Below are positions 16,156 to 56,096 of a stretch of DNA of 64,000 bases, piece by piece. Both the position numbers and the translations under genes were made by a program. Below the pieces are notes generated by a model that was given only the letters and a program-made list of their open reading frames with translations, ran no database searches and was not told where the DNA came from. Every line of letters starts with the position of its first letter. Position 1 is the stretch's first letter. The DNA is from Apostichopus japonicus (taxonomy: Eukaryota; Echinodermata; Holothuroidea; Aspidochirotida; Stichopodidae), in assembly GCF_037975245.1 (NCBI RefSeq), contig NC_092576.1:28697111-28761110 (forward strand), written 5' to 3'.

Positions 16156-21331
<5,176 letters not shown>

Positions 21332-25939: not shown

Positions 25940-27394
25940 ATATTCCAGCATAGGGTTATATTACTTATATTGATAGCTGATTAACATTTCATTTATTGGG
26001 AGACTAATTAATGCATTTTCACTGTTTTAATGTCGAAAAATCACTCTCTTTGTTGGCGTCTTAACTGTTTTTTCCCCTTTGGCAGATATTTTATTTGACA
26101 TTTTGAAAACGACACAAATAAGTCATATATGTCTGGAAAAAATAGGTATATTGGTTTACATTTCGGAGTTTTATTTCTAATAAATTCCTTGTTTATCAAA
26201 TAAGCTACTCGATTTAATCATACATAATAAACCCACGACCTAGCCGATCCCCAAATATGCCATTTGTTGTTCATAGTTGATACTTCTACTGTGAAAGTAT
26301 ATATAAAATATCAATAATTGTGTAGTCAAACATCACATAATCATGTTGGTTTAGTATTTATTATATTGCTACCAGAATATCTCTTTCACGTGAGAACGTA
26401 TCATTCGCCTGTGCAGAGTGAGAGCTTTCAGTGTCACATTTCCTGACACCTGCTGCGTTCGTAGCAATTAGTAATTCATTTCAATTTGTTTTATATTCGA
26501 GACAGGATGGATCAAAGGTCGACAGGTGTGTACCAGTGACTTGCGGTATCATTACAATTTAAAGGCAAGAAAGAGTTAAAATTTCAGAAAGGTAACAGTA
26601 GTCGTAGTAATTCAGTGACTTTCGACACGCATATCAGTTAACACTGCGTAGGTGTTGCTCAAATACAATATGTTGTCGTTTAACAATATTTACAACCTAA
26701 TTGCGATTTCTCTTTTAGCAGTCTGTATTTAATTGACCGACCATTAAAGACTGGTCTGAGAAGAAATAGCCTACAGTGACTATTTGTTGTGTCTTCGTTG
26801 TCTCTCCATTTCGGCTCTGTATACTTCCAAGCCATTCTATATATTGCTTGACTTAACATGATATAACATAGTTACAACTACATTGTTATCTTCAGAGAAT
26901 ATACAGCTATAAATAAACAAATCAAAGCAGTACTAGAAACTTGCAAAGAATGACATTTATGTACCTTATCTTTCCATTTACATTCCCAGTACGTCCATAA
27001 CCGTACATGGAATGTCAAAAAGAAGAGTTTGCATTTAGCCTGAATCGATTGGCCATAACCGAATAAGATATGCCGTATTCGGCATCGGGCTAAGCTAGAC
27101 ATTTTAAGAGGGGGTCATAACCCGGACTCTCTTTATCCCGAACCACATATGACCGTCAGTCTACCCCCGTAAGGAACTCTAGTAACAAACACATTATTTT
27201 TGATGCTGTTGCATATGTAGCTGAAGAAAAGAACTTGTCAACGAAACTACTAAAAGAACTATTAATGTACTAATATCGTATCACGCTAAAGAATGCAATC
27301 AAGGCTTATTTCCGGTTGCAATAAATCATCTCTGGAACCTAATTAAATGTGCATGGGTACTCATTCGTTAAGTGAGTTACGAGTGCAACATCAA
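25940..27394. other. Intergenic DNA, nothing recognised
   Basis: AT-rich unique-looking sequence. I find no exon with supported splice sites, no RNA gene and no terminal repeats. Confidence 0.4.
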
Positions 27395-27908
27395 TTTAAC
27401 CGAATACAGCATCAACTTTAAACGAGTACAGCATCAACTTTAAACGAGTACAGCATCAACTTTAAACGAGGACAGCATCAACTTTAAACGAGTACAGCAT
27501 CAACTTTAAACGTGTACAGCATCAGCTTTAAACGAATACTGCATCGACTTTAAACGAGTACTGCATCAATTTTAAACCAGTACATCATCAACTTTAAACG
27601 AGTACAGCATCACCTTTAAACGAGTACAGCATCAACTTTAAACGAGTAAAGCATCAACTTTAAACGAGTACAGCATCAGCTATAAACGAGTACAGCATCA
27701 GCTATAAACGAGGACAGCATCAGCTTTAAACGAGTACAGCATCAACTTTAAACGAGTACAGCATCAACTTTAAACGAGTACAGCATCAGCTTTAAACGAG
27801 TACAGCATCAACTGTAAACGAGTACAGCATCAATTTTAAACGAGTACTGCATCAACTTTAAACGAGTACAGCATTAACTCTAAAAAAGTACAGCATCAAA
27901 TTTAAACA
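27395..27908. repeat. 22-bp minisatellite, about 23 copies
   Basis: Unit ACAGCATCAACTTTAAACGA plus GT, with point variants (CAGCTATAAAC, ACTGCATC). Copy length is almost constant, with substitutions scattered across the array. Confidence 0.95.
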
Positions 27909-30169: not shown

Positions 30170-30255
30170 ACAATCGGCGTCCGTGGCCTGGTGGTTGGGG
30201 TGTCCGCGTGCAGAGCGGGAGGCCCGGTTTCGAATCCCGGTGGAGGCTGGAAGTT
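30170..30255 (+). mobile_element. tRNA-like SINE head
   Basis: A Pol III-type A box (TGGCCTGGTGGTTGG) at 30184-30198 and a B-box-like GGTTTCGAATCCC at 30226-30238 are spaced as in a tRNA. The acceptor stem does not pair well and the B box carries an extra T, so this is a SINE head rather than a functional tRNA gene. It is followed by a T run and a (TA)n tract. Confidence 0.65.
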
Positions 30256-32312: not shown

Positions 32313-32579
32313 GGGGGCGCGCGCCCCCAACGCCCCCCCCCTGGATACGCACCTGTATATATATATTTATATATAAGAAATGAATGTGTAAAATATGGTC
32401 GTGAAGTGGAATTTTTATGGTGTGTTATTCTTTACTTATTATATATATATATATATATATATGTATTGACCTTTTCAACTATCAACTTTAATAGGGGAGA
32501 AATTAATGTGAATCTATTAACATATTATCATTTTGTATTTAGTTATAAAAACTGTAGGAGCCAAAAAAGAAGCAAATAA

Positions 32580-33600
32580 TAACTCTGCATTTGTCGAAAA
32601 ACTGATTATCTGAAAATTTCGAATAATTCATCAAAATTCCCGCTATTATGGCCTATATTGCTCCAACTCATCAGGCCGCCCTGGTTCCCGTCGTTAAAAG
32701 TCTCTGTCACGACGCTACTGGCCGCCCTGGTACCGTGGTATGTCTCATCGGAATTTGATCCCACCAACACCTCCTCTTCCCAGATTTCCCCTTCTGCGTC
32801 TTAAAACGTCAAGTTGTTTGTTGGAATTTGGTGACGTTTTATCTCGAAACGTCGACTATTAATCTTGAAATATTCATTTTAATTTCAGCTATTTGTTGAC
32901 ATTATACCCTTTATGGCCAACTTTCCTGGTAAAGTGTGGAACTTTAAGCATTTTGAATTTCATATCAAATTTCGGTTTTTCATCAGTTAATATCGCTTTT
33001 CATCCGGCCTTTTATTGAAATAGTGCCTTTTTTAGGACAAAATTTCCACCTAAAATGTATTATTATTATTATTATTATTGTTATAACATTAGGCTGATTA
33101 CTACCTGAAGCGGATAAACATTATCACTTGATTGCCTGAAATGTATATTGCCGCTAATAGAAATGATCCAGCTGTTCGATCTAGCACTGCCGTGGAGTGC
33201 ATGCATTCCTAAATATACTCATAGAATGAGTTTCTTAACCACAAGAAGTGGCGCAGTACGAAAAGGAGGATAATTGGTCTAGCTTCCAACAGCTTAGTAC
33301 GTATGGTTGACTGACTTCGATGAATGCCCAGACAAGAAAACATCCATACTAATGAGGTCAGGCACGCGACGGACGCGCTTCGCGGGAAATTCATTTCTAA
33401 CGGTAGGAAGGGTAGGAAGGAAAGGAACGAATGAAGTGCAACATTTTATACAGCGGGCTGCTTTGCAGTGAAGGTAAGTTAAGGAATCTAAATAGAATAT
33501 CTTAAGTTACCTTTCCTTTGATTTGGCTGAGGAATACAATACATTTTAAAGTGATTGCTAATGATGTGCGTAACTTTACAACAATTATAACACCATATGC
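32580..33600. other. Intergenic DNA
   Basis: A short (ATT)n at 33060-33078. No supported gene. Repeated words such as GCCGCCCTGG (32668, 32721) hint at an old local duplication. Confidence 0.35.
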
Positions 33601-33636
33601 ATGTAGAGTACACTTCAACTAAAGTTGACAGGCAAT

Positions 33637-33785
33637 GGCGGAGCTAGGGGTAATGGTCAGTGGGCGAGATCTATGGTCGATAGGGGCGTTTCCGACACTA
33701 TCAAAGCGGATAGCCACCACAGTTTGGCGCGGAGCGTACATAAGTTTAGATTACCGCTAATGACCCTTTCCGGGCCTCGCTAATT
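33637..33785 (-). mobile_element. GCTCCGCGCCAACC-family repeat copy
   Basis: Minus-strand core at 33697-33740 (GTACGCTCCGCGCCAAACTG). More diverged than the other copies. The outer part includes AATGGCGGAGCTAGGGGTAA. Confidence 0.6.
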
Positions 33786-34780
33786 TGCAGATAATGTGAC
33801 ATGTCTAAAGGTCAATAATGTCAATAATCGCGAATAAGTAAAAAGTGGTAAAAAGCTGAAAAGGGCGCCAGCAATCAATTTGAGTCCGTCAGGGGGGGGA
33901 GGGGTGGGGCATCCGCCACTGTTGACAGGTTGGAAGTAAGTGCAAACTGTATTTCCTGCAACACTGTAGTGCAAACACCAACTGCAAGGCATACCGTACA
34001 AACATTAACATAACAATAATAGGTAGGTAATTTATTAATGTGTTTCACATTTTTATTCATCTTGAAACTTAAACATCATTTGTACTGAAAACACCTTAAC
34101 AGAAAACTAACAGCTTACAACTTATTAAGGGTCTAAACAAGAAAAGAACAAATTTAAAGCTTGGCTTACATGGGCAAGATTAAAGACTGCTTCGAAACTT
34201 ATATTTTAATGAAGGTAAATCAGATCATAACACTTACATGTTATGAATGCTTAAAGTAAATATACCTTTGTCTCCAAATGATAAACACGTGCATTGAAAC
34301 CGATCACAAGTTGTTGTTGTCTCTGTGATAACTAGATGTTGGAACATAACTGATCACATAACAAAATGGTTATTTGTAGCATTTGTAGTATAAATTTCTA
34401 GCTAGCGAAACAAGTTAATCAATGTTCACAGATAAAACAATTGCTGAAAGGAACACTGACTGGGATACTTCAGTCAGAAAATGTGCCAATGTAAGGTTAT
34501 CAACTCTTCAGAATCTTGCACATTAATAGTAAGTTTGAACATCTCAAAAGTAATTATATTTCTATTCAGTCAAGATGTCAAACCCCAAATCCAAACACCA
34601 ATGTATGCTGTTTTTTTTAGTTGTTCCCTGCTATATTCAAAGTTTTTGGGAGCAATGTAAATTCAGACATTATCAATAAATACAATACATTTTCATAAAG
34701 ATGTTACAAAAGGAGGTTGCCAAAACTTGCTACTTGGATATTTGGGATATACTCAGAATAAGATTTTACAATTCTACTGG
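33786..34780. other. Intergenic DNA preceding the tandem-repeat domain
   Basis: No gene recognised. The block TCAGTCAGAAAATGTGCCAAT at 34470-34490 recurs at 49739-49759 on the other side of the arrays. Confidence 0.4.
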
Positions 34781-34790: not shown

Positions 34791-34851
34791 AGAACGATGA
34801 CAATGCGAATGAGGACCTAGACGGCAGATCGATGGAAGAACGAGAGGAACC
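34791..34851 (+). other. Exon-like segment related to the tandem arrays
   Basis: Preceded by a pyrimidine stretch and TTTCTTTCTAG, and followed by a weak donor-like gttgtg. The 61-nt segment is open in one frame (acidic, NDDNANEDLDGRSMEEREEP). Its GACGGCAGATCGATGGAAGA is close to the GGCAGATCGATGGAGACGCT of the 176-bp repeats. It may be the ancestral single-copy form of that repeat. No partner exons found. Confidence 0.4.
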
Positions 34852-34862
34852 AGGTTGTGAAA

Positions 34863-34989: not shown

Positions 34990-35978
34990 GTGTGAGTAGG
35001 GTATCTAAGCATGAGTTGGGTATCTAAGCCTCAATAGGTATCTAAGAGTGAGTGGGTATCTAAGTCAGTGTAGAGTAAGTAAGCCTGAGTAGGGTTTTAG
35101 GCCTGAGTAGGCTATCTAAGCCTCACGAGAAGGGTACCTAAGCCTATGTATGATATCTAAACGTGGGTAGGGTATCTAAGTGTGAGTAAGGTATCTTAAC
35201 GTGAGTAGGGTATCTAAGTGTAGTATGGTATATAAGCCTGAGTAGGGTATCTAAGCGTGAGTAGTGTATCTTTGCCTGAGTAGGGTGCAGTTTCTTAGCC
35301 TCGGTAGTGTATCTAGTCCTGAGTAGGGTATCTAGGCCAGAGTAGGGTATCTACGCCTGAGTACTGGGAATCTATGCCTATGTAGGGTATCTAAGTGTGA
35401 GTAGGGTAGCTTAGGGTGATTAGGGTATCTAAGGGTGAGTAGGGTATATAAGCGTGAGTAGGGTATCTAGGCCACAGTAGGGTTTCAAGGCCTGAGTAGG
35501 TTATCTAGGCCTAAGTAGGTTATCTAAGACAGAGTATTAGGTATCTAAGCCTTATATGGTATCTAAGTGTTAGTAGGGTATCTAAGGATGAGTAGGGTAT
35601 CTAAGCCAGAGTACTGAGTATCTAAGCAAATGTTTATAAGCCTGGGTAGGGTATATTAGCGTGATTAGGGTATCTAAGCTTGAGTAGGGTATATCAGCTT
35701 GAGCAGGGTATCTAAGCCTGAGTAAGGTATCTAAGCCTGAGTAGGTATCTAAGCCTGAGTAAGGTATCTAAGCCTGAGTAAGGTATCTAAGCCTGAGTAA
35801 GGTATCTAAGCCTGTGTAGGGTATCTAAGCCTGAGTAGGGTACCTTAGCCAAACTACTGGGTATCTAAGCCTATGTAGGGTATCTAATGGTGAGTAGTGT
35901 ATCTAAGCCTGAATAGGGTACAGTATCCAATACTGAGTAGGGTACAGTATCTAAGCCTGAGTAGTGTATCTAAGTTTT
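34990..35978. repeat. 19-20-bp minisatellite, left part
   Basis: About 50 degenerate copies of GGGTATCTAAGCCTGAGTA. Substitutions are frequent and some units gain a few bases (GTACAGTATC variants). The array resumes at 40601-40805, so it was one array before the LINE inserted. Confidence 0.93.
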
Positions 35979-36288
35979 GATAAGATAATTGGAGAGTTGA
36001 TCAAGCTTGCATGTAAGCTCGCATGCTATCAACTTCAAGAAAGTTGGTCAGAAAAATGAAGCGTTTTATTGCCTTTCTAACTACGAGCAATGGATCCACA
36101 AAATAATATGCAGCTGTATTAATATCGAATCTGAGCATCACACTGACATGTGAACTATATCTTTCGTTTAAAATCCGATAGTAAACTTTTTCCAAGTTTC
36201 ATCTGCACTGGCTGTCTCCTACATATAACAGTGAGTTCCGCGAATCTTTCTTTTATATTGCCTCGTCCATATAACCTTTAAGTTAAAG

Positions 36289-37010
36289 ATGTCTAGCGAC
36301 AACGAAGAAAAATTCCCAACAAACTGACCTAGCTTCCTCGATAATATCAGAGTTCTTAAATGGTGAGGAATTCAAAAAAAATTATCCAAACATGTGTTGA
36401 GAAGGCAATAGAAGCAAAGTTGGACAAATTTATGAGACATAATGATATGATTGAGGGTCAGCTGCATGATGTACAGTGTAAATTGGATGAAGTTGTATCG
36501 CAAAATAATCACTTGAATCCAAAAGTAACCCATCTAGAGGAGAAATGTAAAAAGATTGAGAATGCTTTGAATAAAATGGAACAATATTCCCGACGTAATT
36601 GTTTGAGATTCATGGGAGTAGCAGAGACAAAGGATGAGGACACCAACGCCGTAATTAAATCTCTTGCAACTACAAAACTTGGAGAAACCATTCGGGACGA
36701 CGATCTTGACCGTTCCCACCGCATAGGAAAACTTAATCAAGATGGTAAACCGAGGATCATTATTGCCAAATTTACTCGCCACGATGTGAAGGACCAAGTG
36801 ATACGCTCCCGGAGAAAATTAAAAGGGATGAAAATGGCCATCCAGGAAGACCTAACGGCCGGTAATTTGGACTTACTTAAGAAAGTTGAAAAACATCAGA
36901 AAGTGAAGGCAGTTTGGACGGTGGATGTAAGAATCATGGCTATTGTTAACAATGGACAATCTGAATCTGAAATGAGGATAAGATCCCTTTCTGATCTTCG
37001 AAAAATTTGA
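36289..37010 (+). pseudogene. LINE ORF1 (coiled coil plus RNA-binding domain), frameshifted at the 5' end
   Basis: A 216-codon open part (36360-37010) has an N-terminal heptad-rich coiled coil (about residues 15-75). Then come EQYSRRNCLRFMGVAE and DDLDRSHRIGK, typical of LINE ORF1 RNA-binding domains, and a basic C-terminal part (RSRRKLKGMK, IQEDLT). An ATG at 36289 in a different frame (MSSDNEEKFPTN) is probably the original start, cut off by a stop or frameshift before 36360. ORF1 proteins coat the element RNA and act as nucleic-acid chaperones. Confidence 0.8.
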
Positions 37011-37439
37011 TCTTTTGGAACTTTCCCTTGAACCATCACTGTATAACTTTAAAAAATTTTGGACACTCATTTCAAGCGATCAAGTGTGAAGCTGTGCATT
37101 TTTGTTTATATGTATTGTTAAAGGATCCGAGCTGACTCTTCAGCTCTTGCGTTCCGATAATACTGTGAGATTTTCGTTTTTCATTGTAAGTTATCTTTAA
37201 GCCTCTTTACTTTACCTTTATTTTTTTTCCTTCCCTTTCTCTTTTTTGTAAATTTCTATTCAGGCCCGGTAAAGAAGAACTTAACTATCCCGCCTTTAGT
37301 GAACCTGATAGTAATTACCATACTAATGAGGTTAAACCTACTCATGATAATATTGATCCCGATGCCATCTTTTATGATTCTTTAATTGCCCAAAACACGT
37401 GTAGCTATTATGACGTCAATGAACTTAACTCAAAGTCCG

Positions 37440-40328
37440 GCAACAATTTCTTTTCGCTTCTCCACATTAATTCAAGAAGCTTAGGGGAAAAAAATTGACA
37501 ATTTGTTTACCTTAGTTAAATCACTCCATAAAACTTTCACTTTTATCGGTGTGTCTGAAACGTGGATAAAAGAAGATACCCCAATTCATCTTCTTCAACT
37601 CCCTGGTTATTCATTTTTATCAAGGTCTCGTTCAAATATGAGAGGGGGGGTGTGGGCTTTTATGTTCATGATTCATGCGTTTATAAAGTCAGGGATGACT
37701 TAACTGCTTTGAAAGAGGATTGTTGCGAGTCACTTTTTTATTGAAGTTGAAAACCCGTGTGATACCAGACTAAGGTAGAACCTTGATAGGAATTATTTAT
37801 CGTCCTTCTCATGATAGCAATTTTATTGATTTTATGGATAATTTTGAAAATACTACTATTGATATATGCAATGAGGGTAAACCATGTTACATTCTTGGGG
37901 ACTTTAATTTAAACTTACTTGAGTCACGTAATTATAATGTTGCGCAGTTTGTTAATACTGCTGCAGCTTCATTCTTCAGACCTTTAATTAACTGTCCGAC
38001 AAGAACTTCAAAATATTCAAACTCTTCATTGCTTGACAATATATTTACAAATGTTACTGATAAGATTTCTATTAGTCGTGTTATATTGCATGATATTTCC
38101 GATCATTTTCCTGTGTTTTGCTTAACGTCACAAACAATTACCCCTCATAATGATAGAACCAACAAATTTAAGCGTAATATGTCCCCGATTAATTTAGGTA
38201 AGTTTGTACACAATCTTTTTATGGAACCTTGGAGTGGTGTTTGTGATAGTAACGATCCTGACACTGCATATTTTACTTTTATTTCTATGTATTCTAAGAT
38301 TATATAACGATAGTTTTAATAGATATATAACAATAGTTTTCCTTAAGTAAAAGTTAATAAACGCACTCCTAGAAAAGACTGGTGTACTTCTGGCATTGTA
38401 AATTCATGTCATACTAAAGACAAACTTTATAAAAAGTATATCAAAAAGCCTAGTGAAGAAAATCGTGAGAATTACATTAGATTTAGGAATAAGCTAACCA
38501 GTGTTATTAAAATTGCTAAGAAACATTTTTATTTCGATACATTTAGATCATCTAACCACAAAAGAACGTGGGACTGCATTAATTCTCTCATCAAGAACAA
38601 ACCCTCCACTTCTTCTGTCACTTCGTTGAAATTGGATAAAAATTGTGTTTCTAATCCCTGTGATATTTCTAATGCATTTAACGATTACTTTACTAATATT
38701 GGTCCAACTTTAGCCCGTGATATTTCGGTTTGTATACAAAAACCCCTAGACTATATGTGCCAAGCCAATCCCATGGATTGTTTCTTTTAAATCCTACAGA
38801 CGAAGTGCAGGTTTTAGATTGTATTTCAAATTTAAAAAAAAAATCAAGCTGCGGTTATGACGACATTAGTCCTAAAGTTGTTAAATTATCAAGTTCTGCT
38901 TTTTGTAAACCTCTCGTGCATATCATTTATTGTTCTTTTTTCCAAGGTATTGTTCCGTCTGACTTGAAAATAGCTCGTGTAGTTCCGGTATTCAAAAGTG
39001 GCATGCGAGAGACCGTCAATAATTATAGGCCTATATTTGTCTTATTCGTTTTCAAAGATCTTTGAAAAACTTGTATTTAGTCGTTCATATTCCTTTTTAA
39101 TAAAACATGATCTATTATATGATTATCAGTTTGGCTTTCTGCCTCAACGTAACACGTCCCAGGCTCTTTTAAGTCTTGTAGATATATTATTGAATCTTTT
39201 GAAAGTAAATGTCTAGTTGGGGGGATATTTTTATATCTCTCCAAGGCTTTTTATACGCTTGACCATTCAATTCTGTTAAAAAAGCTTGATAAATATGGCA
39301 TAAGGGGGCTGCCATATCTTGGTTTAATAGCTACATTCATAATAGATTCCAATATGTTTCTTTATCTGGCGCTAATTCTTCCAAGCAGGCAATTCATTGT
39401 GGTGTTCCCCAGGGCTCTATTCTTGGACCGTTATTGTTCCTCATTTATATAAACGACCTTCCTAACGTCACTCCAAAATTTCACTTTATTTTGTATACAG
39501 ATGATACTAATTTACTATATAAAGGTCGTGATATAAATACTCTTGTTAACGATATCAATACTGAAATCCCCAAAATTACTGTCTGGTTTAGATCCAATAA
39601 ACTTCACTTAAATGCTAAAATACTACCACCATTATTTTTCATCCGAATCAACGACAAATAGTTTCTTCAAACCTTGCGATTATAATCGATAGAACCGCCA
39701 GTACCTTTTTCCCATTCCACAAATTTTCTTGACCTTATCCTAGATGAAAATCTCAGTTGGATCCCACATATTCAGAACTTAAAAAGAAAAGTGTCCAAAG
39801 CCATTGGCATTATCAATCGTTTAAAAAAAATTGTCCCCTTTAAAACTCTGATAACTTTATACAATATTCTTATCTTGCCTTTTTCATCGTATTGTTGTAT
39901 TGTGTGGGGTTACACTTATCCCAGTCATATTAATAAGCCCTATATTCTACAAAAGAAAGTGTTGCGTGCAATTTATGATGTTCCTTTACAATAGTCACTT
40001 GTACAGCCTCTTCTGTGACAGTAAACTCTTAACCATATTTGAATTAGTCAAGTACTACACCTTAATATTTGTATATAACTTTTTTCACGACAATCAACCA
40101 AGTAGCTTCTCCTATTTTTTGTATCAAATAATTGTTTTCATGCTTACAATACCAGCAATGTTAATTTACTTTCCGTTCTCCATTATTCTCTTGCAAGTAG
40201 TCAACATTTTGTCAAAAACTCTGCTTTTTTTTATTAATTCCGTACCAAATGCATTGCATTCTATTAATAGTTTATCCTCATTCAAACGTAATTTAAAGCG
40301 TTACCTTCTTTCGAATAGAATTTTATGA
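37440..40328 (+). pseudogene. LINE ORF2 remnant (endonuclease and reverse transcriptase)
   Basis: Read in pieces across frames. Endonuclease: LLHINSRSL near 37457, FIGVSETWI, LGDFNLNLL and SDHFPVF. Reverse transcriptase: NNYRPI near 39015, YDYQFGFLPQRNTSQALL, GVPQGSILGPLLFLIYINDL near 39400-39454, and the catalytic motif as YTDDT near 39497, instead of the usual YADDT. C-terminal part: LILPFSSYCCIVWG near 39867. Breaks occur near 37497, 37640-37745, 38305, 38780, 39065, 39213, 39660 and 39990, so it cannot make a working protein. Confidence 0.85.
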
Positions 40329-40600
40329 TTTAGTCTAAAATTCGGGCCACGTCTTTGTTAAAGTCCCCCCCCCCCTACACTTTTTTTTATTATTATTATT
40401 CATTTTCTTGTAACACTTTTTTTGTCATACTTTGTACCTTTGTTATACTTTGTCAGTTTGTATTTTGGGGATACCTCACTTACAAGTTCTTATAAACTTT
40501 TCGAGGATCTCCACAACCATATACTTTGTATGTATATACTTCAATTATGTAAAATGTTGATAACGTTGATGGTTGAAATATAGTTGAACAAACAAACAAG

Positions 40601-40805
40601 TGTGAATGGGGAATCTAAGCGTGAGCAGGGTATCTAAGCGTGAAAAGGGTATCTTAGCGTAGTAGGATATCTAAGCGTGAGTAGGGTTTATAAGCGTGAG
40701 TAGGTTATATAAGCGTGAGTAGTTTATCTAAGCGTGAGTAGGGTATCTAAGCTTGAATAGGGTATCTAAGCCTGAGTAGGGTACAGTATATAAGCGTGAG
40801 TAAGT
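40601..40805. repeat. 19-20-bp minisatellite, right part
   Basis: Units such as GGGTATCTAAGCGTGAGTA, a continuation of 34990-35978 on the far side of the LINE. Confidence 0.9.
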
Positions 40806-42202
40806 GGAAGGTAGGTTGAAGGTAAGTGGAAGGTTTTGGAAGGTAGAAGAAGATGGAACAAGACGCTGGACGATGCCCCCAGTCGGAGGGGGGATGTCAG
40901 TGGGTTAGTGGGTGGGCTATGTATTTGGTACGATCTTATTGTTTTTCTCTTCCTTGTTTTTTCAGATGCAGAGGAAGATGAATGAAGACGCTGGACGATG
41001 CCAACACATAAAAAAAGGGGTGGGGTGTCCCTCTTCAGTGGGTGGGCTATGTATTTAATATGTTTTAACTGTTTTTTCTATCCTTGTTTTCTCAGATGCC
41101 AATTGTTATGTATTTAATACGTTCTAATTGGTTTTCTATTCCTTGTTTTTCAGATGCAGAAGAAGATGGGATAGGACGCTGGACAATGCCACCATTAGAA
41201 GAGGGGTTGTCCCTGGGTCAGTGGGTGGGCTATTTTTTTTTTATATATTTGAACTGTTTTTCTATCCTTGTTTTCACAGATGCAGAGGAAGATGGAATAA
41301 GACGCTGGCCGACGCCATCGAAAGAAGACGGGATGGGGTGTCCCTTGGTTAGTGAGTGGGCTCTGTTTTTGAAATGCTTTAACCGTTTTCTATTCTTGTT
41401 TTTACAGGTGCGGAGGGTTATGTATATGATATAATCTACTTGTTTTTCTATCTTTTTTTCAGAGGCAGAACGACGACAATAAGCGAGTTCAGAGTTACGA
41501 GTGCGCATGCCCGATTCTCACTTGGGGTCAGGTCAACTGAGAATTGAATCCTCGGAAAACGTAAACAATGACAGCTTTTCATAACGATAATCGCACTAAG
41601 AATGGGTTACTGCGACATTCGGAATTTATTTCTAGTGCATATTTCGGTGTGTTTACGACTTAAAAACGTGTATAAATTGACTGAAACTACTTCATAATAA
41701 TATTGAATATAATGGAACACAGGTCCGTATCGCACGTGAAATAATAAGTCTGATATAGGCCTACGAACGGGAAAAGGAGTATATGTGACTGTATCCTTCG
41801 TATGGGTTACGCGACCTTACGTGGTTGCGGGTGTCTTAATGCTTCGCAGAAGTTCTAACTGATAATTTTCGGAAATGAATTTAAAATATAGCATGGAACA
41901 AACTATTTTGCCCTTTTGTTTGTCATTATGAGCCTGAACTGTTTTTTAGAGAATATCGTAAGCAACTCGAGTCTAAAATACTAACAGTGACACTGACAGA
42001 ACTGTAGATCTAAATAGGCCTACATAACCTATCCTCATACTCGTTGCTTTTACGTCCATCAACGAACACTGCATAGTAGAGGCATTGGTATCTTGTAGTT
42101 GCAACTACATGGTTTTTCATGTTAAGAAATATTAGTTCTCTTCATTTTTATGCGTGACTTAAAATAAGCTTAGTCTTATTCTTGGCATATTCCTACTTAT
42201 AG

Positions 42203-42774
42203 GGGGGTGTTACTAAAACGAATGACAGTTGCGTTACACATAACGAATGACAATATGTTGTAGGCCTACACACTAAAAAATTGCGTTGACTAAAACGAAT
42301 GAAAGTAAATGACAGCACAGACATTTGCTTCAACCGGATGTCACAGTTCAGACTTTGTGGGTATATTAAAGCCACGCAAATCGGAAAATTGGGGTTTAAA
42401 TCGCAAAAATTCGAGTTGACATTTTGCGACTGTGACCGGTGTTTTCGGTAAATTCTTGAGCAAGATGTTTGACTTGTCCTGTGGGATTTTACCCCGTGAA
42501 CTTAGGGGAATTGAAAAAAATTGTTGCTGTATAAAAATTATTGTTTTTATTACCCCCCCCCCCAGGGCAAGGGGACGGTCGCCTCCCTGGCGGAGGTTCT
42601 TTTCCCAGACTGATCATAAAGATGGACCTCTTCTCTCTTATCCCTCTTATATCCACTCACCACCGTCCTTCGTCGTTATTCGTTGTCATTCGCTGTCATT
42701 CGCGAATGATAATTAACCCTGTACAAAGTCAATTGTCATTCGGTCATTCGCTGTCATTCGTTTTTGTTTGTCCT
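42203..42774. mobile_element. Nested inverted-repeat element with CGAATGACA motifs
   Basis: CTTATAG flanks it at 42196-42202 and 42775-42781 (candidate 7-bp duplication). The inner ends are inverted: ACTAAAACGAATGACAG on the left, and CTGTCATTCGTTTTTGTTTG on the right. The motif CGAATGACA or its complement recurs several times near each end (for example 42243-42251 and around 42680-42700, where TCATTCGCGAATGA is a palindrome). No supported ORF. Confidence 0.65.
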
Positions 42775-42843
42775 CTTATAGGGTGGGTTCAATTTGTTCG
42801 AAAAAAAATAAATAAAAATATTTATTTTATTTGGAGAAGAACA

Positions 42844-43392
42844 TTATAAAAAATAATAGTGGGTGGGGGATTTCCAGGGGTTATTCCAAGGAATATTATT
42901 AATACGCTGCGATGGTGTACACTCTGCCTTTAGAAAGCACAACCTTGACTCTGCAGAAATGGCATTGTAAAATATTTCCCTGAGCCACCCAGACTCTAAA
43001 TAGCTGAAGACTTTACCATCTTTATAGTCCGTCATCAGTCTTTGCTTCAGTTCAATGTTATCATTACTGGTAAAATAATGCGCAATATCAATGTACATGC
43101 AAGGCGGCCATTTTTTCATTTCAATTTCGCCTTCCCATGCAAGTGGTAAATCCGAAAGAGGATCGGGCATGGTCTTTCCTTCAACCTGAAGTACCGATGC
43201 GTGGTCATCTGCCTTTTCATTTCGCGCATCTGCTTTATTAACTTCAGCAATGTTCATCTGAACGGCAGCATACGCTAAAGCAACCAACTCTTCTTTCCGG
43301 CCATTCATCTTCAACTTTCGTTTCTTTAAAAATTCCTTCAGTCTGTCAACTTTCCAAAGTTTAAACTCTTCCAAACTTGTAGGAATATCCAT
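42844..43392 (-). CDS. SAP-domain protein, probably 3'-truncated
   Basis: 182 codons from ATG at 43392. Residues about 8-45 (LWKVDRLKEFLKKRKLKMNG then RKEELVALAY) are a SAP motif, a helix-extended-helix DNA-binding module. The middle (DYKDGKVFSYLESGWLREIF, FLKAECTPSQRINN) resembles the region preceding a SWIM zinc finger and YqaJ-type nuclease in large invertebrate proteins as I recall them; those domains are absent. It ends in a short unlike tail (WKSPTHYYFL) close to the nested element at 42203-42774, which may have replaced the rest. Lying inside inverted-repeat ends, it is probably cargo or part of a mobile element. Expression is unknown. Confidence 0.55.
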   Translation of the reverse strand: MDIPTSLEEFKLWKVDRLKEFLKKRKLKMNGRKEELVALAYAAVQMNIAEVNKADARNEKADDHASVLQVEGKTMPDPLSDLPLAWEGEIEMKKWPPCMYIDIAHYFTSNDNIELKQRLMTDYKDGKVFSYLESGWLREIFYNAISAESRLCFLKAECTPSQRINNIPWNNPWKSPTHYYFL

Positions 43393-46300
43393 CCCAAAGC
43401 GAAAAAACAGAGTAAATTTAGACGTAAATTATGCGATTTCTAATGTTTACTGTAAGTGCTCATTAAGTTAACGTGGGTACGCGAGCATACAACTCTCGTC
43501 GCAACGAGAGTATTCTTATTTGACCTCTTGACCTCCATTGCGCAATGCAAACTCTGAACTCGCTTATATAAGAATAATGACAATGGAAGATGGATGCAGA
43601 CAGAAGGAGGTGGAATAAGACGCTGGACGATGCCACAAGGGAAAAGAGGGGTGGGGTGTCCCTGGGTTAGTGGGTGGGCTATGCATTTGATATGTTTAAA
43701 CTGTTTTCCTATCCTGGTTTTTTCAGATGCAGAAGAAGGTGATTAAGACGCTAGACGATGCCACCAGAAGAAAAGAGAGAGAGGGGGGGGGGGTGTTACT
43801 GGGTCAGTGGGTTGGTTATGTATTTGATATATATTAACTGTTTTTCTATCCTTGTTTTTTCAGATGCAGAGGGTTATGTATTTGATACGTTCTATTTTTG
43901 TTTATTCCTTTTTTTTCAGATGCAGAAGGAGATGGATTAAGACGCTAGACGATGCCACCAGAAGAAGAGGGGGGGTGTCCCTGGGTCAGTGGATGGGCTA
44001 TGTATTTGATATATTTTAATTGTTTTCTATACTTTGTTTTTTCAGATGCAGAAAAAGATGGATTAAGACGCAGGACGACGACAACATAAGAAGAAGGATA
44101 ATGACTGAAAGATGCCACAATGAGACGTAAGGGGGGGGGGGGTGTCCCTGGGTCAGTAGGTGAGCTATGTATTTGATATATTTGAACTGTTTTTCTATCC
44201 TTGTTTTTTTTCAGATGTAGAAGAAGATTGATAAAGACGCTGGACGATGCCACCAGAAGAAGAGGGAGGGTGGGGTTGTTACTGGGTCAGTGGGTGGGTT
44301 ATGTATTTGATGTGGTTAACTGTTTTTCTATCCTTGTTTTTCAGATACACAGGGTTAAATATTTGATACGTTCTTATTGTTTTTCTATTCTGGCTTTTTT
44401 AGATGCAGAGGAAGATGGATTAAGACGCTGGACGATGCCACCAGAAGAAGACGGGGGTAGGGGTGTCCCTGGGTCAGTAGGTGAGCTATGTATTTGATAT
44501 ATTTGCACTGTTTTTCTATCCTTGTTTTTTTTCAGATGCAGAAGAAGATTGATAAAGACGCTGGACGATGCCACCAGAAGAAGAGGGAGGGTGGGGTTGT
44601 TACTGGGTCAGTGGGTGGGTTATGTATTTGATGTGGTTAACTGTTTTTCTATCCTTGTTTTTCAGATGCACAGGGTTAAATATTTGATACGTTCTTATTG
44701 TTTTTTCTATTCTGGCTTTTTTATATGCAGAGGAAGATGGATTAAGACGCTGGACGATGCCACCATAAGAAGAGGGGAGGAGGTGTCCTTGAATCAGTAG
44801 TTGGGCTATGTATTTGATATGTTTTAAGTGTTTTTCTATACTTGTTTTACAGGTGCGGAGGGTTATGTATTTGATATGTTCTTATTGTTTTCTATCTTTG
44901 TTTTCAGATGCAGAAGAAGAAGGATTAAGACGCAGGACGACGACAACATAAGAAGAAGTACAATGACTATGGAAGGTGGATGCAGACAGAAGGAAGTGGA
45001 ATAAGACGCTGGAAGATGCAACAAGAAGAAGTAGGGGTTTACCTGGGTAAGTGGGTGAACTATGTATTTGATATGTTTTAACTGTTTTTCTGTCCTTGTT
45101 TTTGCGGATGCAGAAGAAGATAGATTAAGACGCTGGACGATGCCACCATAAGAAGAGGGGTGGTTGGGTGTCCATGGGTCAGTAGGTGGGCCCTGTATTT
45201 GATATGTTTTATCTGTTTTTCAATTCTTGTTTTTTCAGATGCAGAAGAAGATGGAATAAGACGTTGGACGATGCCACCAGTCGAAGACGTGGGTGGTGTC
45301 CCTGGGTTAGTGGGTGGGCTCTGTCTTTGATATGTTTTGACTGTGTGTCTATCCTTGTTTTTTCAGATGCAGAGGCTTATGTATTTGATACGTTCTTATT
45401 GTTTTTCTACTCTTGTTTTTTTCAGATGCAGAAGAAGATGGAATAAGACGTTGGACGATGCCACCAGTCGAAGAGGTGGGTGGTGTCCCTGGGTTAGTGG
45501 GTGGGCTCTGTATTTGATATGTTTTGACTGTGTGTCTCTATCCTTGTTTTTTCAGATGCAGAGGCTTATGTATTTGATACGCTCTTATTGTTTTTCTACT
45601 CTTGTTTTTTCAGATGCAAAAGAAGATGGATTAAGACGCTGAACGATGCCATCAGAAGAAGAGGGGGGGGGGGGGGTGGGGTGTGTCTCTAGGTCCATGG
45701 GTGAGCTTTGTATTTGATATGTTTTAAGTGTTTTTCTATCCTTGTTTTTCAGGTGCGAAGGGTTATGTATTTGATATGTTCTTATTGTTTTTCTATCTTT
45801 GTTTTCAGATGCAGAAGAAGATGGATTAAGACGCAGGACGACGACAACATAAGAAGAAGGATAATAACAATGGAAGGTGGATGCAGACAGAAGGAAGTGG
45901 AATAAGACGCTGGAAGATGCCACACGAAGAAGTAAAGGGGTGTCTCTGGGTTAGTGGGTGAGCTATGTATTTGATATGTTGTAACTGTTTATCTATCCTT
46001 GTTTTTCGGATGAAGAGGGTTATGCTTTTCATATGTTTTAACTGTTTTTCTATTCTTCTTTTATCAGATGCAGAAGAAGATTGATTAAGACGCTAAACGA
46101 TGCCAAAAAAGAGGAGGGAGTGTCCCTGGATCAGTTGGTGGGCTATAAATTTGATATGTTTAACTGTTTTCTATCCTTGTTTTTTCAGATGCAGAGGAAG
46201 ATGGATTAAGACGCTGGCCGATGCCACCAGAAGAAGAAAGGGGGTGGGGTGTCCCTGGGTCAGTAGGTGGCTATGTATTTGATATATTTGAACTGTTTTT

Positions 46301-49300
46301 TCTATCCTTGTTTTTGTTTACATGCAGATGAAGATGGATTAAGACGCTGGACGATGCCACCAGAAGAAGAGGTGGTGTCCCTCTTCAGTGGGTGAGCTAT
46401 ATATTTGATATGTTTTAACTGTTTTTCTATCCTTGTTTTTACAGGTGCAGAGGGTTATGTATTTGATACGTTCTTATTGTTTTTCTATTCCTTTTTTTTT
46501 CAGATGCAGAAGAAGATGGAATAAGACGCTGGACGTTGCCACCAGTTGAAGAGGTGGGGAGAGGTGTCCCTGGGTTAGTGGGTGGGGTCTGTATTTGATA
46601 TGTTTTAACTGTATTCTATCCTTGTTTTTTCAGATGCAGGAGAAGGTTGATTAAGACGCTGGACGATGCCGCCAGAAGAAGTGGGAAGGTGGGGTTGTTA
46701 CTGGGTCAGTGGGTGAGTTATGTATTTCATATGGTTAACTGTTTTTCAATATTTGTTTTTCTATTCTTGTTTTTTTCGGATGCAGAGGAAGAAGAATAAA
46801 GACTCTGGCCGATGTCACCAGAAGAAGAGACGGGGGGGGGGGTGGCGTCCCTGTGTCAGTGGGTGGGCTGTGTATTTGATATGTCTTAACTGTTTTTTCT
46901 ATCCTCGTTTTTTCATATGCAGAAGAAGATGGAATAAGACGCTGGACGATGCCACCAGAAAAGAGGGGGGTGTCTCTAGGTCAGTGGGTGAGCTATGTAG
47001 TTGATATGTTTTAAGTGTTTTTCTATCCTTGTTTTTTAGGTGCGGAGGGTTATAAAGAAGATGAATTAAGACACAGGACGACGACAAAATAAGAAGAAGG
47101 ATAATAACAATGGAAGGTGGATGCAGACAGAAGGAAGTGGAATAAGACGCTGGACGATGCCACAAGAAGAAGTAAAGGGGTGTCCCTGGGTTAGTGGGTG
47201 AGCTATGTATTTGATATGTTTTAACTGTTTTTCTATCCTTGTTTTTTCAGACGCAGAAGAAGATAGCTTAAGACGCTGGACGATGCAAACAGAAGAAGTG
47301 AGGGGGGGGGGGGTGAGTACCTGGGTCAGTGAGTGGGCTCTGTATTTGATATGCATTAACTGTTATTCTATCCTTGTTTTTCAGATGCAGATGGTTATGT
47401 ATTTGATACCTTCTAATTGTTTGTTATTACTGTTTTTTTTCAGATGCAGAAATAAGTGGATTAAGACGCTGGTCGATGCCACCAGAAGAAGAGGTGGTGT
47501 CCCTAGGTCAGTGGGTGAGCTATGTATTTGATATGTTTTAACTGTTTTTCTTTCTTTGTTTTTTTCAGACGCTTAAGACGCTGGACGATGCCAACAGAAG
47601 AAGAGAGGGGGTGATGAGTACCTGGGTCAGTAAGTGGGCTATGTATTTGATATGCATTAACTGTTATTACATCCTTGTTTTGATGTATTTGATACGTTCT
47701 AATTGTTTGTTATTACTTGTTTTTTCAGATGCAGCAGAAGATGGAACAAGACGCTGGACGATGCCACCATAAGAAGAAGTGGTAGTCCTTGGGTCAGTGG
47801 GTGGGCTATGTATTTGATATGTTTTAACTGTTTTTCTTTCCTTGTTTTACAGGTGCGGAGGGTTATGTATTTGATATGTTCTTATTGTTTTTCTATCTTT
47901 GTTTTCAGATGCAGAAGAAGATGAATTAAGACACAGGACGACGACAACATAAGAAGAAGAATAATAACAATGGAAGGTGGATGCAGACAGAAGAAGATAG
48001 CTTAAGACGCTGGAAGATGCCAACAGAAGAAGAGAGGGGGTGGGGAGTACCTGGGTCAGTGAGTGGGCTATGTATTTGATATGTCTTAACTGTTATTACA
48101 TCCTTGTTTTTGATGTATTTGATACGTTCTAATTGTTTGTTATTATTTGTTTTCAGATGTAGAAATAAATGGAATAAGACGCTGGGCGATGCCACGAGAA
48201 GAAGTAAAGGGGTGTCCCTGGGGTAGTAGGTGAGCTATGTATTTGATATGTTTTAACTGTTTTTCTATCTTTGTTTTTTCAGATGCAGAAGAGGATAGAA
48301 TAAGACGCTGGACGTTGCCACCAGTCGAAGAGGTGGGAATCGTCCCTGGGTTAGTGGGTTGGCTCTGTATTTGATATGTCTAAACTGTATTCTATACTTG
48401 TTTATCAGATGCAGATGGTTATGTATTTGATACGTTCTAATTGTTTGTTATTACTTGTTTTTCAGATGCAGAAATAGATGGATTAAGACGCTGGTCGATG
48501 CCACCAGAAGTGTCCCTAGGTCAGTGGGTGAGCTATGTATTTGATATGTTTTAACTGTTTTTCTTTCTTTGTTTTTTTTTTTCAGACGCAGAAGAAGATA
48601 GCTTAAGACGCTGGACGATGCCAACAGAAGAAGAGGTGGGGTGGGGAGTACCTGGGTCAGTAAGTGGGCTATGTATTTGATATGCATTAACTGTTATTAC
48701 ATCCTTGTTTTTGATGTATTTGATACGTTCTAATTGTTTGTTATTACTTGTTTTTCAGATGCAGAAGAAGATCGAACAAGACGCTGGACGATGCCACCAT
48801 AAGAAGAAGTGATAGTCCTTGGGTCAGTGGGTGGGCTACGTATTTGATATGTTTTAACTGTTTTTCTTTCCTTGTTTTTTTCAGACGCAGAAGAAGATAG
48901 CTTAAGACGCTGGACGATGCCAACAGAAGAAGAGGGGGGGGGGGAGTACCTGGGTCAGTGAGTGGGCTATGTATTTGATATGTTTAACTGTTTTTCTATC
49001 CTTGTTTTTCCGATGCATATGGTTATGTATTCGAAACGTTCTAATTGTTTGTTATTACTTGTTTTTCAGATGCAGAAATAGATGGATTAAGACGCTGGTC
49101 GATGCCACCAGAAGAAGAAGTGGTGACCCTAGGTCAGTGGGTGAGCTATATATTTGATATGTTTAACTGTTTTTCTATCCTTGTTTTTACAGGTGCAGAA
49201 GGTTATGTATTTGATACGTTCTTATTGTTTTTCTATTCCTTGTTTTTTTCAGATGCAGAAGAAAATGGAATAAGACGCTGGACGTTGCCACCAGTCGAAG

Positions 49301-49739
49301 AGGTGGGGGGTGTCCCTGGGTTATTGGGTGGGCTCTGTATTTGATATGTTTTAACTGTTTTTCTATCTTTGTTTTATCAGAAGATTTTATGTAGAAGAAG
49401 ATGGATTAAGACGCACGACGTCGACAACATAAGAAGAAGGATGATGACAGTGGAAGATGGATGCAGACAGAAGAAGGTGGAATAAGACGCTGGAAGATGC
49501 CACCAGAAGCAGAGGATGGGGAAGTCCCTGGGTTAGTGGGTAGGCTATGTATTTGATATGTTTTCACTGTTTTTCTATCTTTGTTTCATCAGATGTAGAA
49601 GAAGATGGATTTAGACGCACGACGTCGACAACATAAGAAGAAGGATGATGACAGTGGGTGGTGTATGCAGACAGAAGAAATAAGAGGCTGGACGATGCCA
49701 CCACAAGAAGAGGTACGTTTTAACTGTTTTTCTATCCTC

Positions 49740-50100
49740 AGTCAGAAAATGTGCCAATTTAAGTCATTAAATGTTGTACTTTAGACAGACATAAGTGTAA
49801 TGGTCACTTAACTTAATTGTCTCCTCATTAATGACAGTGATTAATAGTCAATACATTCACTCGTTTTTCTCACAACAGTCTGCTGAGGTACTGCCTCTTT
49901 CACAGCAAATCCATGAAACAATGATTTGTAAAACAGTGCGTTCCACACAATAAGCAAAAAATAAACAATATCGTTAGAAATCAATATGTGTTTTGCCTGG
50001 TCAATTAATGACATGTAATCCATGTCATAGCAGAGCATATGGTGATGCTTATATTCAGCAAGGTTCACCCAGTTTGCATTGTTTTCCATAGCCTTGTTAT
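49740..50100. other. Spacer between repeat families A and B
   Basis: Shares TCAGTCAGAAAATGTGCCAAT with 34470-34490, so it may be a duplicated copy of the flank of the exon-like segment at 34791. No gene seen. Confidence 0.5.
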
Positions 50101-50103
50101 TTC

Positions 50104-51975
50104 AGATGTGATGGCAGGCAGATCGATGGAGACGCTGGACGGCACTCGGAGACGGTGGAACAGGACAGAAGATGGACGAACAAGCAGAACATTGATGGAA
50201 GGGGACTGACAGGAACCCTGGATAGGTGCGATTTACAATGTGTTTGATATGTTTCAACTGTTTTCTTTAGCCTTTTATTTCAAATGTGATAGATGGCAGA
50301 TCGATGGAGACTCTGGACATCAATTGGAGACGGTGGAACAGGACAGAAGATGCATGAAGAAGAAGAACAACGACGTAAGAAGAATGACGGGACCCCTGGA
50401 TAGGTGCGTTTAACAATTTGTTTGATATGTTTTAACTGGTTTCTTTAGCCTTTTATTTCATATGTGAAAGATGGCAGAGCAATGGAGACGCTGAACGGCA
50501 TTTGCAAATGTTGGAACAGGTAGACGATGAATTAAGAGGCAGAACAACGACGAAAGAAGAATGACGGGACCCTGGATAGGTGCGTTTAACAGTGTGTTTG
50601 ATATGTTTTAACTGTTTTCTTTAGCCTTGTTATTTCAGAGGTGATAGCAGACAGATCGATGGAGACGCTGAACATCAATTGGAGACGGTGGAACAGGGCA
50701 GAAGAGGAAGGAAGAAGCAAAACTACGACTGAAGAAGAATGACGGGACCCTGGATAGATGCGTTTTAAATGTGTTTGATATGTTTTACTGTTTTCTTAGC
50801 CTTTTTATTTCAGATGTGATAGATGGCAGATCGATGGAGACGCTGGACATCAATTGGAGACGGTGGAACAGGACAGAAAATGGATGAAGAAGCTGAACAA
50901 CGACGTAAGAAGAATGACGGGACCCATTGATAGGCGCGTTTTACGATGTGTTTGATATGTTTAAACTGTTTTCTTTAGCCATTTATTTCATATGTGAAAG
51001 ATGGCAGAGCAATGGAGACGCTGGACGGCATTTGCAAATATTGGAACAGGTAGAAGATGAATGAAGAGGCAGAACAACGACGGAAGAAGACTGACGGCAA
51101 CCCTGGATAGGTGCGTTTTACAATGTGTTTGACATGTTTTAACTGTTTTCCTGGCCTTTTCAGAGGATCTGGACGGCACTTGGTGACGGTGGAACAGGAC
51201 AGAAGATAAATAAAGAGGAACAACGACGGAAGAACACTACAGGACCCCTGGATAGGTGCGTTTTACGATGTGTTTGATATGTTTTAACTGTTTACTTTAG
51301 CCTTTTTATTTCAGATGTGATATATGGCAGATCGATGGAGAAACTTGACGGCAATTAGAGACGGTGGAACAGGACAGAAGATGGATGTAGAAGTAAAAAC
51401 AACAACGGACGAAAAATAGTCAGACCCCTGGTTAGGTGCGTTTTACAATGTGTTTGATATGTTTTAACTGTTTTCCTGAGCCTTGTTAGTTTAGATGTGA
51501 TAGCAGACAGATCGATGGAGACGTTGGACGGCAATTAGAGACGGAGAAAAGGGTCAGAAGATGGATGAAGAAGAAAAAACAACAACGGAAGAAGAATAGC
51601 CGAAACCATGGTTAGGTGTGATAACAATGTGTTTGATATTTTTAATTTTTTTCCTTAGCCTTTTTATTTCAGATGATAGCAGACAGAACGATTAAGACGC
51701 TGGATGGCACTTGGAGACGATCGAACAGGACAAGATAAATGAAAAAGAAACATGACAACGATGGAAAAAGACTGACAGGACCCCTGGATAGGTGGGTTTT
51801 ACAATGTGTTTGATGTGTTTTAAATGTTTTATTTAGCCTTGTATTTCGGATGTGATAGCAGACAGATCGATGGAGACGCTGGACGGCACTTGGAGACGGT
51901 CGAACAGGACAGAAGATAGATGAAGAAGCAGAACAACGTCGGAAGAATAATAATAAAGGGACCCCTGATTAGATG
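50104..51975. repeat. 176-bp tandem repeat (family B), about 11 copies
   Basis: Units start near 50104, 50279, 50459, 50636, 50810, 50987, 51161 (shortened), 51312, 51493, 51670 and 51847. Each has TTTGATATGTTTTAACTGTT, a TTTATTTCAG-like step, then GATGTGATAGCAGACAGATC, GATGGAGACGCTGGACGGCA, and GGACCCCTGGATAGgtgcg. The pyrimidine part is shared with family A, so both arrays descend from one ancestor. Confidence 0.9.
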
Positions 51976-54550: not shown

Positions 54551-56096
54551 TCTGCCCAAAATTCACAAGCCTGGTAAACCTGGTAGGCCTATCATCTCAT
54601 GCAATGGGTCCCCATCGAGATGATATCCTTGTTTGTGGACCACTTCATCAAACCTCTAGTTCCTCAGATTAACTCTTACATCCATGACACTCCAGATTTC
54701 CTCAGGAAACTTGAAGATATCAAGAACCAAATCCATAGTACAGTCATCATCGGTACTTTCGACGTCACTTCTCTTTACACTAACATTTCTCATGCTGAAG
54801 GTATCGCAGCCACGTGTGCAGCCCTGTCTAAGAAGGTCCACACTTTTCCACCCATCTCTGACATCAAAATTCTCATACAACAGGTTCTCACCAGAAACAA
54901 CTTCACGTTCATGGACAAGCATTACCTTCAAAGACACGGGACTGCCATGGGTACCAGGATGGCACCTTCCTTTGCTTGCCTGTTCATGGCTAGCCTTGAA
55001 GAATGCGTGCTCAGTACAGCTCCCTGTCGTCCTCTTTTCTGGTGGCGCTACATTGATGACAACTTTTTCGTTTGGACCAGTGATGAGGATAGCCTGCTCA
55101 CCTTCATCAATCACATCAATTCTTTCCACAGCACCATCAAATTCCCCTATGATTACTCTCACCAACAGGTTAATTTTCTCGATGTGACTGTTCGCAAGGA
55201 ACACGGTTCTCTCTCTACAGACTTATACACCGAGCGCACAGACACACACCAGTATCTTCATTCTTCAAGCTGCCATCCCCGTAACTGCAAGTCTGGAATT
55301 GCCTACAGTCAAGCACTTCGTCTTCGTCGCATTAGCTCTAACAATTCCTCTTTCATTCGCCATACAGATGCTTTGGAAAAACACCTTACTGCCAGGGGCC
55401 ATATGCCAGAAGGTCGCGTGAAGCCATTTAGAGAGACCACTCCCTCTCCAGATCATCTACCCCTGGTTGTTATTTTCCACCCAAATCTTTCTCCTCTTCA
55501 GCAAATCACCTCTAAAAACCACAACATTCTCCTCACTTCAGATAGACTCCAACGAGCCGTCCAAGAAAAACCCATCATCGCCTACAGACGACCCCGCAAC
55601 CTACGAGACCTTATTGTGCGTGCTGCTGTTCCACCTCTAACTTCTAACCCTACACTCATTCAGCATGATACTTTCAAACGTGATCGCACTTCGAGATGCA
55701 TCATCTGCAGCCACTACATTCTTGAATCCAATTCCATCACCAGCCACAGCATGCAACTCACACACAAGACTAAGGGTCACATCACTTGCACAACCACTAA
55801 TGTCATATATCTGATCTCTTGTAGAGTTTGCGGCATCGAGTATGTTGGCGAGACCAAAACCACTCAAGAAGCGATTCTATGGTCACAGATCCATAGTCAA
55901 CACCATGAAGACTGAGACCCCAGTTGGAGAACACTTTAACCTTCCCAACCATACCATTAACGACATGTCCCTACATGTGATTGAATCCTTAGGTAGCCGT
56001 CCTGACATAGTACGAATCAGCAGAAAGAGGCTGTGGATGCAACGCCTTCACACCATTCAACCTCATGGGCTCAACATTCAGGAAGGACATGACTAA
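54551..56096 (+). pseudogene. Penelope-like reverse transcriptase and GIY-YIG endonuclease (two frameshifts)
   Basis: Main open part 54599-55915. Reverse transcriptase motifs in order: TFDVTSLYTNISHAEGI (usually YTNIP), RHGTAMGTRMAPSFACLFM, WWRYIDDNFFVW (catalytic Asp pair in YIDD), VNFLDVTV, RTDTHQYLHSSSCHP. The linker ends in a Cys-rich CIICSHYI, then VIYLISCRVCGIEYVGETKT, the GIY-YIG start. The rest (RFYGHRS, GEHFNLPNH, ESLG, RLWMQRLHTIQPHGLN) is in another frame at 55842-56096, so a frameshift lies near 55865-55875. Another lies near 54615, where LPKIHKPG runs into a stop. Both breaks make this copy inactive. It is a host-genome retroelement that nicks DNA with its endonuclease and copies its RNA. 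Confidence 0.9.

Follow-up and report, generated by a model that had tools for sequence, protein, structure and literature searches.

Within a stretch of 64,000 nucleotides of the sea cucumber Apostichopus japonicus genome (NCBI RefSeq assembly GCF_037975245.1, contig NC_092576.1, positions 28,697,111 to 28,761,110 of the forward strand; hereafter the window), direct reading and repeat finding show that positions 40830-49735 form a tandem array of a small exon-like unit. This array is probably a non-coding, decaying, transposon-associated tandem repeat that grew from an exon-intron cassette. The founder would have been a single exon with a short intron (57-64 nt) carrying a branch-point-like word, a pyrimidine tract and AG, and this cassette would have been amplified head to tail next to or within a decaying derivative of a DNA element with CACTG ends, presumably through unequal exchange or slippage. 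It may then have reached many loci, by transposition or segmental duplication, along with pieces of this transposon, which lack its inner part there, so that the unit would be a cargo or a neighbour of the transposon. The splice-like signals would be inherited from the founder, and the spliceosome may use them if a locus is transcribed; we infer that the arrays as such lack a function. In the following, W is the window array, on contig C16, other contigs are named C3, C7, C8 and so on, and C13a to C13d are four loci on C13.

Unit structure and coding potential

The array unit, of about 130 bp, is composed of a mini-intron of about 61-65 nt (TTTTAAC, a T-tract and CAG) and a block of about 70 nt. 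Its consensus runs TATGTATTTGATATG TTTTAAC TG TTTTTCTATC CTTGTTTTTTCAG up to the acceptor border, then ATGCAGAAGAAGATGGATTAAGACGCTGGACGATGCCACCAGAAGAAGAG, a G run and TGTCCCTGG up to the donor border, where GTTAGT or GTCAGT follows. Median lengths in six loci are 70-77 nt for the exon-like and 61-65 nt for the intron-like part. Among the 45 exon-like cores found within 40830-49735, a pyrimidine tract of at least 4 nt with YAG lies just upstream of 31 and a GGTNAG[TA] donor is present in 32, compared with a chance expectation of 0.02 donors per 94-nt search window (estimated from window positions 1-34000); both signals occur together in 23 of the 45. When any base is accepted at +6 (GGTNAGN), the donor is found in 35 cores and both signals in 25. 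Full units alternate with half-units (n = 16), which consist of a mini-intron and a short exon stub, and in the main part of the array some exons are double, with cores about 76 nt apart. The acceptor-exon-donor structure proposed in the initial annotation is thus borne out in its order and its coordinates. Its nine-kilobase extent holds in part: the repeats are real, but they do not form one continuous array, as a 2.09-kb element at 41479-43567 interrupts them and leaves about 6.8 kb of array proper. W is the most diverged of seven arrays compared, with a mean within-array identity of 0.777 against 0.804-0.917 elsewhere, and at Rfam gathering scores no RNA family was found in it.

A sister class of 178-bp units has an exon-like part of about 120 nt that usually ends in ATAG, followed by GTGCG. 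In 174 exon-like stretches of both classes from seven loci, the second frame stays open in 93, the third in 71 and the first in 20, in agreement with the earlier description of blocks open in two frames; the frame is also broken between units by variation in the length of the G run, as had been noted.

A coding gene whose tandemly duplicated exons encode a repetitive protein is an extremely improbable source of such a pattern. The consensus of the 178-bp class does leave one frame open, and its exon of 120 nt is a multiple of three. However, in the 57 full-length hits of this class that were used out of 441, a stop is gained by substitution in the consensus-open frame in 27 units where chance predicts 27.2, non-synonymous changes make up a fraction of 0.736 (0.753 expected, standard deviation 0.015), and 22 of the 34 exon indels are of a single base. 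Exon lengths modulo three are mixed, and the frames obtained by spliced concatenation are no longer than those in permuted exon order (P 0.17-0.73). Frames on the minus strand exceed the longest of 20 single-base shuffles in three of nine stretches (301 amino acids against 238 in C13a, 255 against 210 in C13b, 168 against 148 in C13d). Yet they do not exceed those obtained with permuted unit order (P 0.07, 0.32 and 0.42, respectively, and 0.74 in C8); because unit-order permutations match them, these long frames are read as an effect of repeating an open unit. A coding exon array was therefore rejected, on account of stops at the chance rate, frequent single-nucleotide indels, mixed exon phase and permutation-like spliced frames, and the doubt about coding voiced in the initial annotation was justified.

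Splice-like signals and the proposed founder cassette

The exon-like character of the founder rests on the rarity of its combination of signals: acceptor, exon and donor occur together as in the 132-bp consensus in 4 of 5000 dinucleotide shuffles, by a pattern that was written after the unit had been seen. A plain satellite that was never an exon, and whose consensus resembles splice sites by chance, seems rather improbable in view of this figure. A tandem repeat needs just one founder, so that copy number is no independent evidence, and no founder gene emerged from peptide and DNA searches. In addition, a looser donor raises the shuffle count to 48 of 5000, and the 178-bp consensus misses the strict pattern, scoring 0 at the same thresholds, with 9 of 5000 of its shuffles reaching 1. 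On the other side, a TTTAAY- or YTAAC-like word is retained together with a T-rich tract and CAG in the two unit classes as well as in sample units of C14, C5 and C20, although TTCTATC takes the place of the word in some units of C20 and C3. A further exon-like block, bordered by AG and GT, lies ahead of the minisatellite that precedes the array.

The divergence of splice-site bases was compared with that of other bases, as the initial annotation had proposed, in 191 units of 110-152 bp from seven loci (out of 440 cores from 10 loci), with random sets drawn outside the G run. The four core AG/GT bases change at 0.051 per unit versus 0.078 for the other positions outside the G run, and random four-base sets are as low in 26% of draws. 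Both core dinucleotides are kept in 160 of the 191 units, where random pairs give a mean of 138.7 (standard deviation 26.6, P 0.24). Within arrays, splice-site bases are thus without clear extra conservation over the rest of the unit and diverge about as fast (P ~0.25). Nothing in these data shows that the splice signals are kept for splicing.

Link to a CACTG-ended transposon and genome-wide family

The features of the locus, with the basis of each assignment (TRF, Tandem Repeats Finder; LINE, long interspersed nuclear element; ORF, open reading frame), are as follows:

32397..34028 (+): U1, upstream flank, in whole or part common to six other array-bearing loci (blastn between loci, genome search)
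34027..34489 (+): left piece of the CACTG-ended transposon, matching 1343-1791 in the copy on C7 (blastn)
34507..34738 (+): inner segment of that transposon, matching C7 9990-10221 (blastn)
34793..34853 (+): single exon-like block of 61 nt, preceded by CTAG and followed by GTTGTG (sequence reading)
34993..35968 (+): 19-bp minisatellite (TGAGTAGGGTATCTAAGCC-like), first part (TRF)
35969..40597 (+): LINE-like insertion splitting the minisatellite (ORFs at 36360-40328 LINE-like by eye; minisatellite on either side)
40598..40783 (+): 19-bp minisatellite, second part (TRF)
40830..41478 (+): exon-like 130-bp array, first part (sequence reading, unit counts)
41479..43567 (-): insertion of an unrelated element whose 29-bp ends are inverted; its minus strand holds an ORF with a SAP domain (42847-43428)
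43568..49737 (+): main part of the exon-like 130-bp array, made up of full units and half-units, some exons being double (sequence reading, unit counts)
49738..50079 (+): transposon piece, C7 1772-2120, directly after the last unit (sequence comparison with the C7 copy)
50080..51951 (+): array of the 178-bp sister class, with about 120 nt of exon-like sequence per unit (TRF, unit analysis)

Comparisons between loci, including the mapping of transposon flanks, were made with tandem repeats masked. The pieces at 34027-34489 and 34507-34738, to the left of W, and at 49738-50079, to its right, match one DNA element. Over 8 kb of comparison, its copies on C7, C12 and C5 show 98% identity, and the one on C7 measures 12,386 bp. 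All three copies carry CACTGCAAAAACTC at the left end and its complement at the right (at most two mismatches), that is, CACTR-type terminal inverted repeats, and are flanked by identical 2-bp sequences (TA, TA and TG), which fits a target-site duplication of 2-3 bp. For CACTA/EnSpm elements, a duplication of 2-3 bp is expected. Among the ORFs of the C12 and C7 copies, one of 840 amino acids has no Pfam match at 0.001, DUF4218 being reached at E 0.15, below its cut-off; the element may belong to CACTA/EnSpm or to another superfamily. The C7 copy also encodes a CIDE-N domain (L037 2076-2327; Pfam E 4.4e-07), which we take to be an apoptosis-type domain and which is striking as unusual in a transposon.

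Transposon copies that bear arrays are without most of the interior. Pieces lie on both sides of the array at W, C13c, C8 and C21 and on one side at C13a and C13d, while at C20 and C3 reversed pieces are found about 3.6 and 4.5 kb upstream. At W the piece 34507..34738 adjoins the left piece, the intervening stretch of transposon being missing, and about 20 bases of the transposon are represented twice, in the left piece and again in the piece that follows the last unit. In both W and C13c the array sits between pieces that end near C7 1796 and start at 1772, overlapping by 20-25 bases, with the 9990-10221 piece between the two. The left end CACTGCAAAACTCC is retained at C13a and C21.

A genome search with a transposon piece listed 36 matches, of which one is the window, three are other array loci and five span base 39-380 of the piece (three of these were fetched); the remainder are 16 short copies (201-214 bp) and 11 diverged matches at 10 places. 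Five of these 10 places, namely C4:12.06M, C20:16.19M, C19:16.34M, C3:17.26M and C3:19.71M, have an array or a motif match at a distance of no more than 16 kb, which at C19:16.34M is one listed motif match; among the matches listed, none of either kind is that close to any of the 16 short copies. Neither unit class has an nhmmer hit in the C7 copy up to E 10, and blastn of the 178-bp unit against it gives short matches only (best E 0.26). Arrays thus accompany the transposon but are not made from it: an origin of the unit inside the transposon was ruled out by the lack of a match in the C7 copy, and the satellite is, on sequence comparison, transposon-associated and not transposon-derived.

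Searches of the whole genome (671,581,487 bases, 35 contigs) score the best candidates and list some of the matches, so that family sizes and nearest-array distances are bounds. A 301-bp stretch of the array has at least 200 genome matches, and those listed fall in the window and nine other loci, on C3, C8, C11, C13 (four), C20 and C21. Units of the sister class are also present at C8:7.13M, C13:15.34M, C13:17.69M and C21, among others. More distant arrays on C4, C5, C14 and C20 came up when a relative of three units from C14 (locus L040) served as query, and two C5 units have the same plan of purine-rich block, G run and mini-intron. Arrays of the unit or its relatives thus occur on nine contigs besides C16, to which C19 adds one listed motif match, and range from about 9 to more than 50 units. 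Within-array identity is 0.917 in C13d, 0.911 in C8 and 0.886 in C13a, and the uniformity of these three arrays suggests local exchange. The most intact units are those of the arrays at C8:7.16M and C13:15.33M.

A 36-nt intron motif has 766 matches and a 36-nt exon motif 668 (at most three mismatches), with 0 for each of the reversed-pattern controls. These counts bear on introner-like elements, in which the mini-intron itself would be a mobile module. The mini-intron is better conserved than the exon between families, and introners are reported to be commoner in aquatic species (PMC9860276). However, the 65 intron matches listed all come from stretches where several units match (40 of 72 candidates scored), and the similar numbers of the two motifs leave no large excess of free introns. 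This explanation, which is not supported given that the listed intron matches are in arrays and motif counts are similar, appears very remote.

The U1 flank, shared in part or whole by seven loci counting W, suggests that segmental duplication was one of the ways in which the arrays spread. U1 holds two dispersed repeats (about 33268-33605 and 33633-33917) and a good AAG/GTAAGT donor at 33474, and its exon-like piece sits in a repeat listed at 16 places outside array loci. In the C20 array (L021-L024, C20:16.148-16.188M), some exon-like blocks end with a short piece and donor (GCTGCTATGCAGTGAAG/GTGAGT) that is also present in U1 at window 33452-33493, 84% identical, the join falling at AG.

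As to the other features, the block at 34793..34853 has words in common with the array exons, and neither of two ORFs scanned from the LINE-like insertion has a Pfam match. The inverted ends of the inserted element at 41479-43567 are 86% complementary, and the SAP domain of its ORF has a Pfam E of 2.8e-06; SAP and reverse transcriptase are the sole families named in a Pfam scan of eight window ORFs. The reverse-transcriptase ORF lies at 54587-55912 (RVT_1, E 6e-07) and by eye is presumably Penelope-like; a stretch upstream of the C11 array is 86% like window 54.5-56.5 kb. Two near-identical open frames of 473 amino acids (19910-21331 and 22177-23598, 2.27 kb apart; one was scanned, with no Pfam match) are, by the look of it, a recent tandem duplication. 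U2 small nuclear RNA matches are present at 60385-60608 (+, 52.8 bits) and 13760-13980 (-, 48.4 bits), the Rfam gathering cut-off being 46, and a tRNA-Cys-like sequence at 30176-30249 lies in a stretch that recurs near three C13 arrays. Other tandem arrays in the window comprise 68-bp units in a 270-bp higher-order repeat (1284-2605) and 24 copies of a 22-bp unit (27379-27907). On the downstream side of the C8 array, a 19-bp minisatellite extends for more than 7 kb (376 copies) and reaches the end of the stretch read.

Alternative readings and known systems

Several observations weigh against the origin and spread proposed here. AG and GT are both retained in 160 of the 191 units. The mini-intron keeps a length of 57-64 nt across six units compared between families, and 14 of 15 pairs resemble each other more closely in the mini-intron than in the exon, in a comparison that used consensus or sample units, some from one or two repeats and partly typed by eye, with the intron start set at the GTG common to the classes and with non-independent pairs. 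A 511-bp query has listed matches that span only its positions 178-228 or 318-409 at C20:16.86M and 323-410 at C5:8.30M, and at both places the matches end one or two bases past an acceptor. Such likeness of introns between families could reflect a splicing constraint acting over longer times; the pattern also leaves room for a faster turnover of the purine- and G-rich part. Furthermore, the founder gene was not found, as peptide and DNA searches listed arrays, some of them short, plus a few hits that were single or weak, and the three-unit C14 relative has no recognisable gene within the 5 kb read. C13b and C11 have no blastn match to the C7 transposon, and a check of six array loci for the right terminus found none, which leaves the transposition of whole arrays a supposition. 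Finally, homogenisation is weak: in only three of seven arrays (C8, C13a and C13d) do the units resemble one another more than they resemble those of any other array, and this does not hold for C13b, C13c, C21 and W.

Some of these points would fit arrays that are working transcription units, acting as non-coding RNA genes with many exons or giving rise to circular RNA, with mini-introns that are spliced out and under selection. We regard this as unlikely. Branch-point-like word, T-tract, AG and donor are present in most units of most arrays, the mini-intron measures 57-64 nt across families and is conserved there more closely than the exon, matches end just past the acceptor, and U1 has a good donor at 33474, the same piece with a donor also ending some C20 array exons. 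However, splice bases are not clearly better conserved within arrays, C13b and C13d mostly have GTTAGA or GTAAGA as their donor, the donor position differs between the 132- and 178-bp classes, and the U1 exon-like piece belongs to a repeat that is listed at 16 non-array places. A bolder version, improbable to our minds, is that the transposon lineage travels with functional mini-exons and mini-introns, hundreds genome-wide, with the 57-64 nt intron under selection and the exon drifting; its transcripts might be divided into many very small exons or circles, which would sequester splicing factors or conceal the insertion from its host. Among the options raised in the initial annotation, a relic of amplified exons fits best; a splicing sink and a source of circular RNA, though conceivable, find no positive support in the sequence. 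The genome-wide family and the flanking transposon pieces lay beyond what that annotation could see.

A decaying repeat that probably grew from an exon-intron cassette can be set beside known systems. Satellite DNA tied to DNA transposons is known from the CACTA element Jozin and CficCl-61-40 in Chenopodium (PMC7320549) and from the Tetris foldback element and TIR-220 satellite of Drosophila virilis (PMC4079207). As in these cases, kilobase-scale tandem arrays are physically tied to rearranged DNA transposons; unlike them, where the monomer is a piece of the transposon, the present unit has no match in the C7 copy and consists of an exon-like block and a mini-intron, opposite in orientation to the long ORF of the transposon. 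In soybean, the CACTA element Tgm-Express1 carries fragments of host genes, which splicing includes as additional exons (PMC1947982), and it shows that exon and intron fragments carried as cargo by a CACTR-type element can be spliced. Nevertheless, Tgm-Express1 holds five unrelated fragments, whereas here one cassette, with putative splice sites, is repeated tens of times. Introners (PMC9860276) likewise provide many near-identical introns with splice signals in an aquatic organism, but they insert singly into many genes, while the mini-introns described here are found in arrays, among the matches listed. Internal tandem repeats of human segmental duplications (PMC2812944) resemble the present case as repeats affecting gene structure in duplicated loci, those being human genes. 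Satellites tied to DNA transposons and CACTA elements with spliced gene-fragment cargo are thus known already. The literature searched, which leaves subscription papers and preprints outside its coverage, gave no description of exon-like tandem arrays in sea cucumbers and no precedent for an exon-intron cassette as a satellite unit.

Collectively, these data suggest that a whole exon-intron cassette can become the unit of a satellite and thereby place hundreds of related splice-site pairs in one genome. Such arrays are a trap for gene predictors, which may call giant genes there, and, at the same time, a natural library for testing how the spliceosome handles dense tiny exons.

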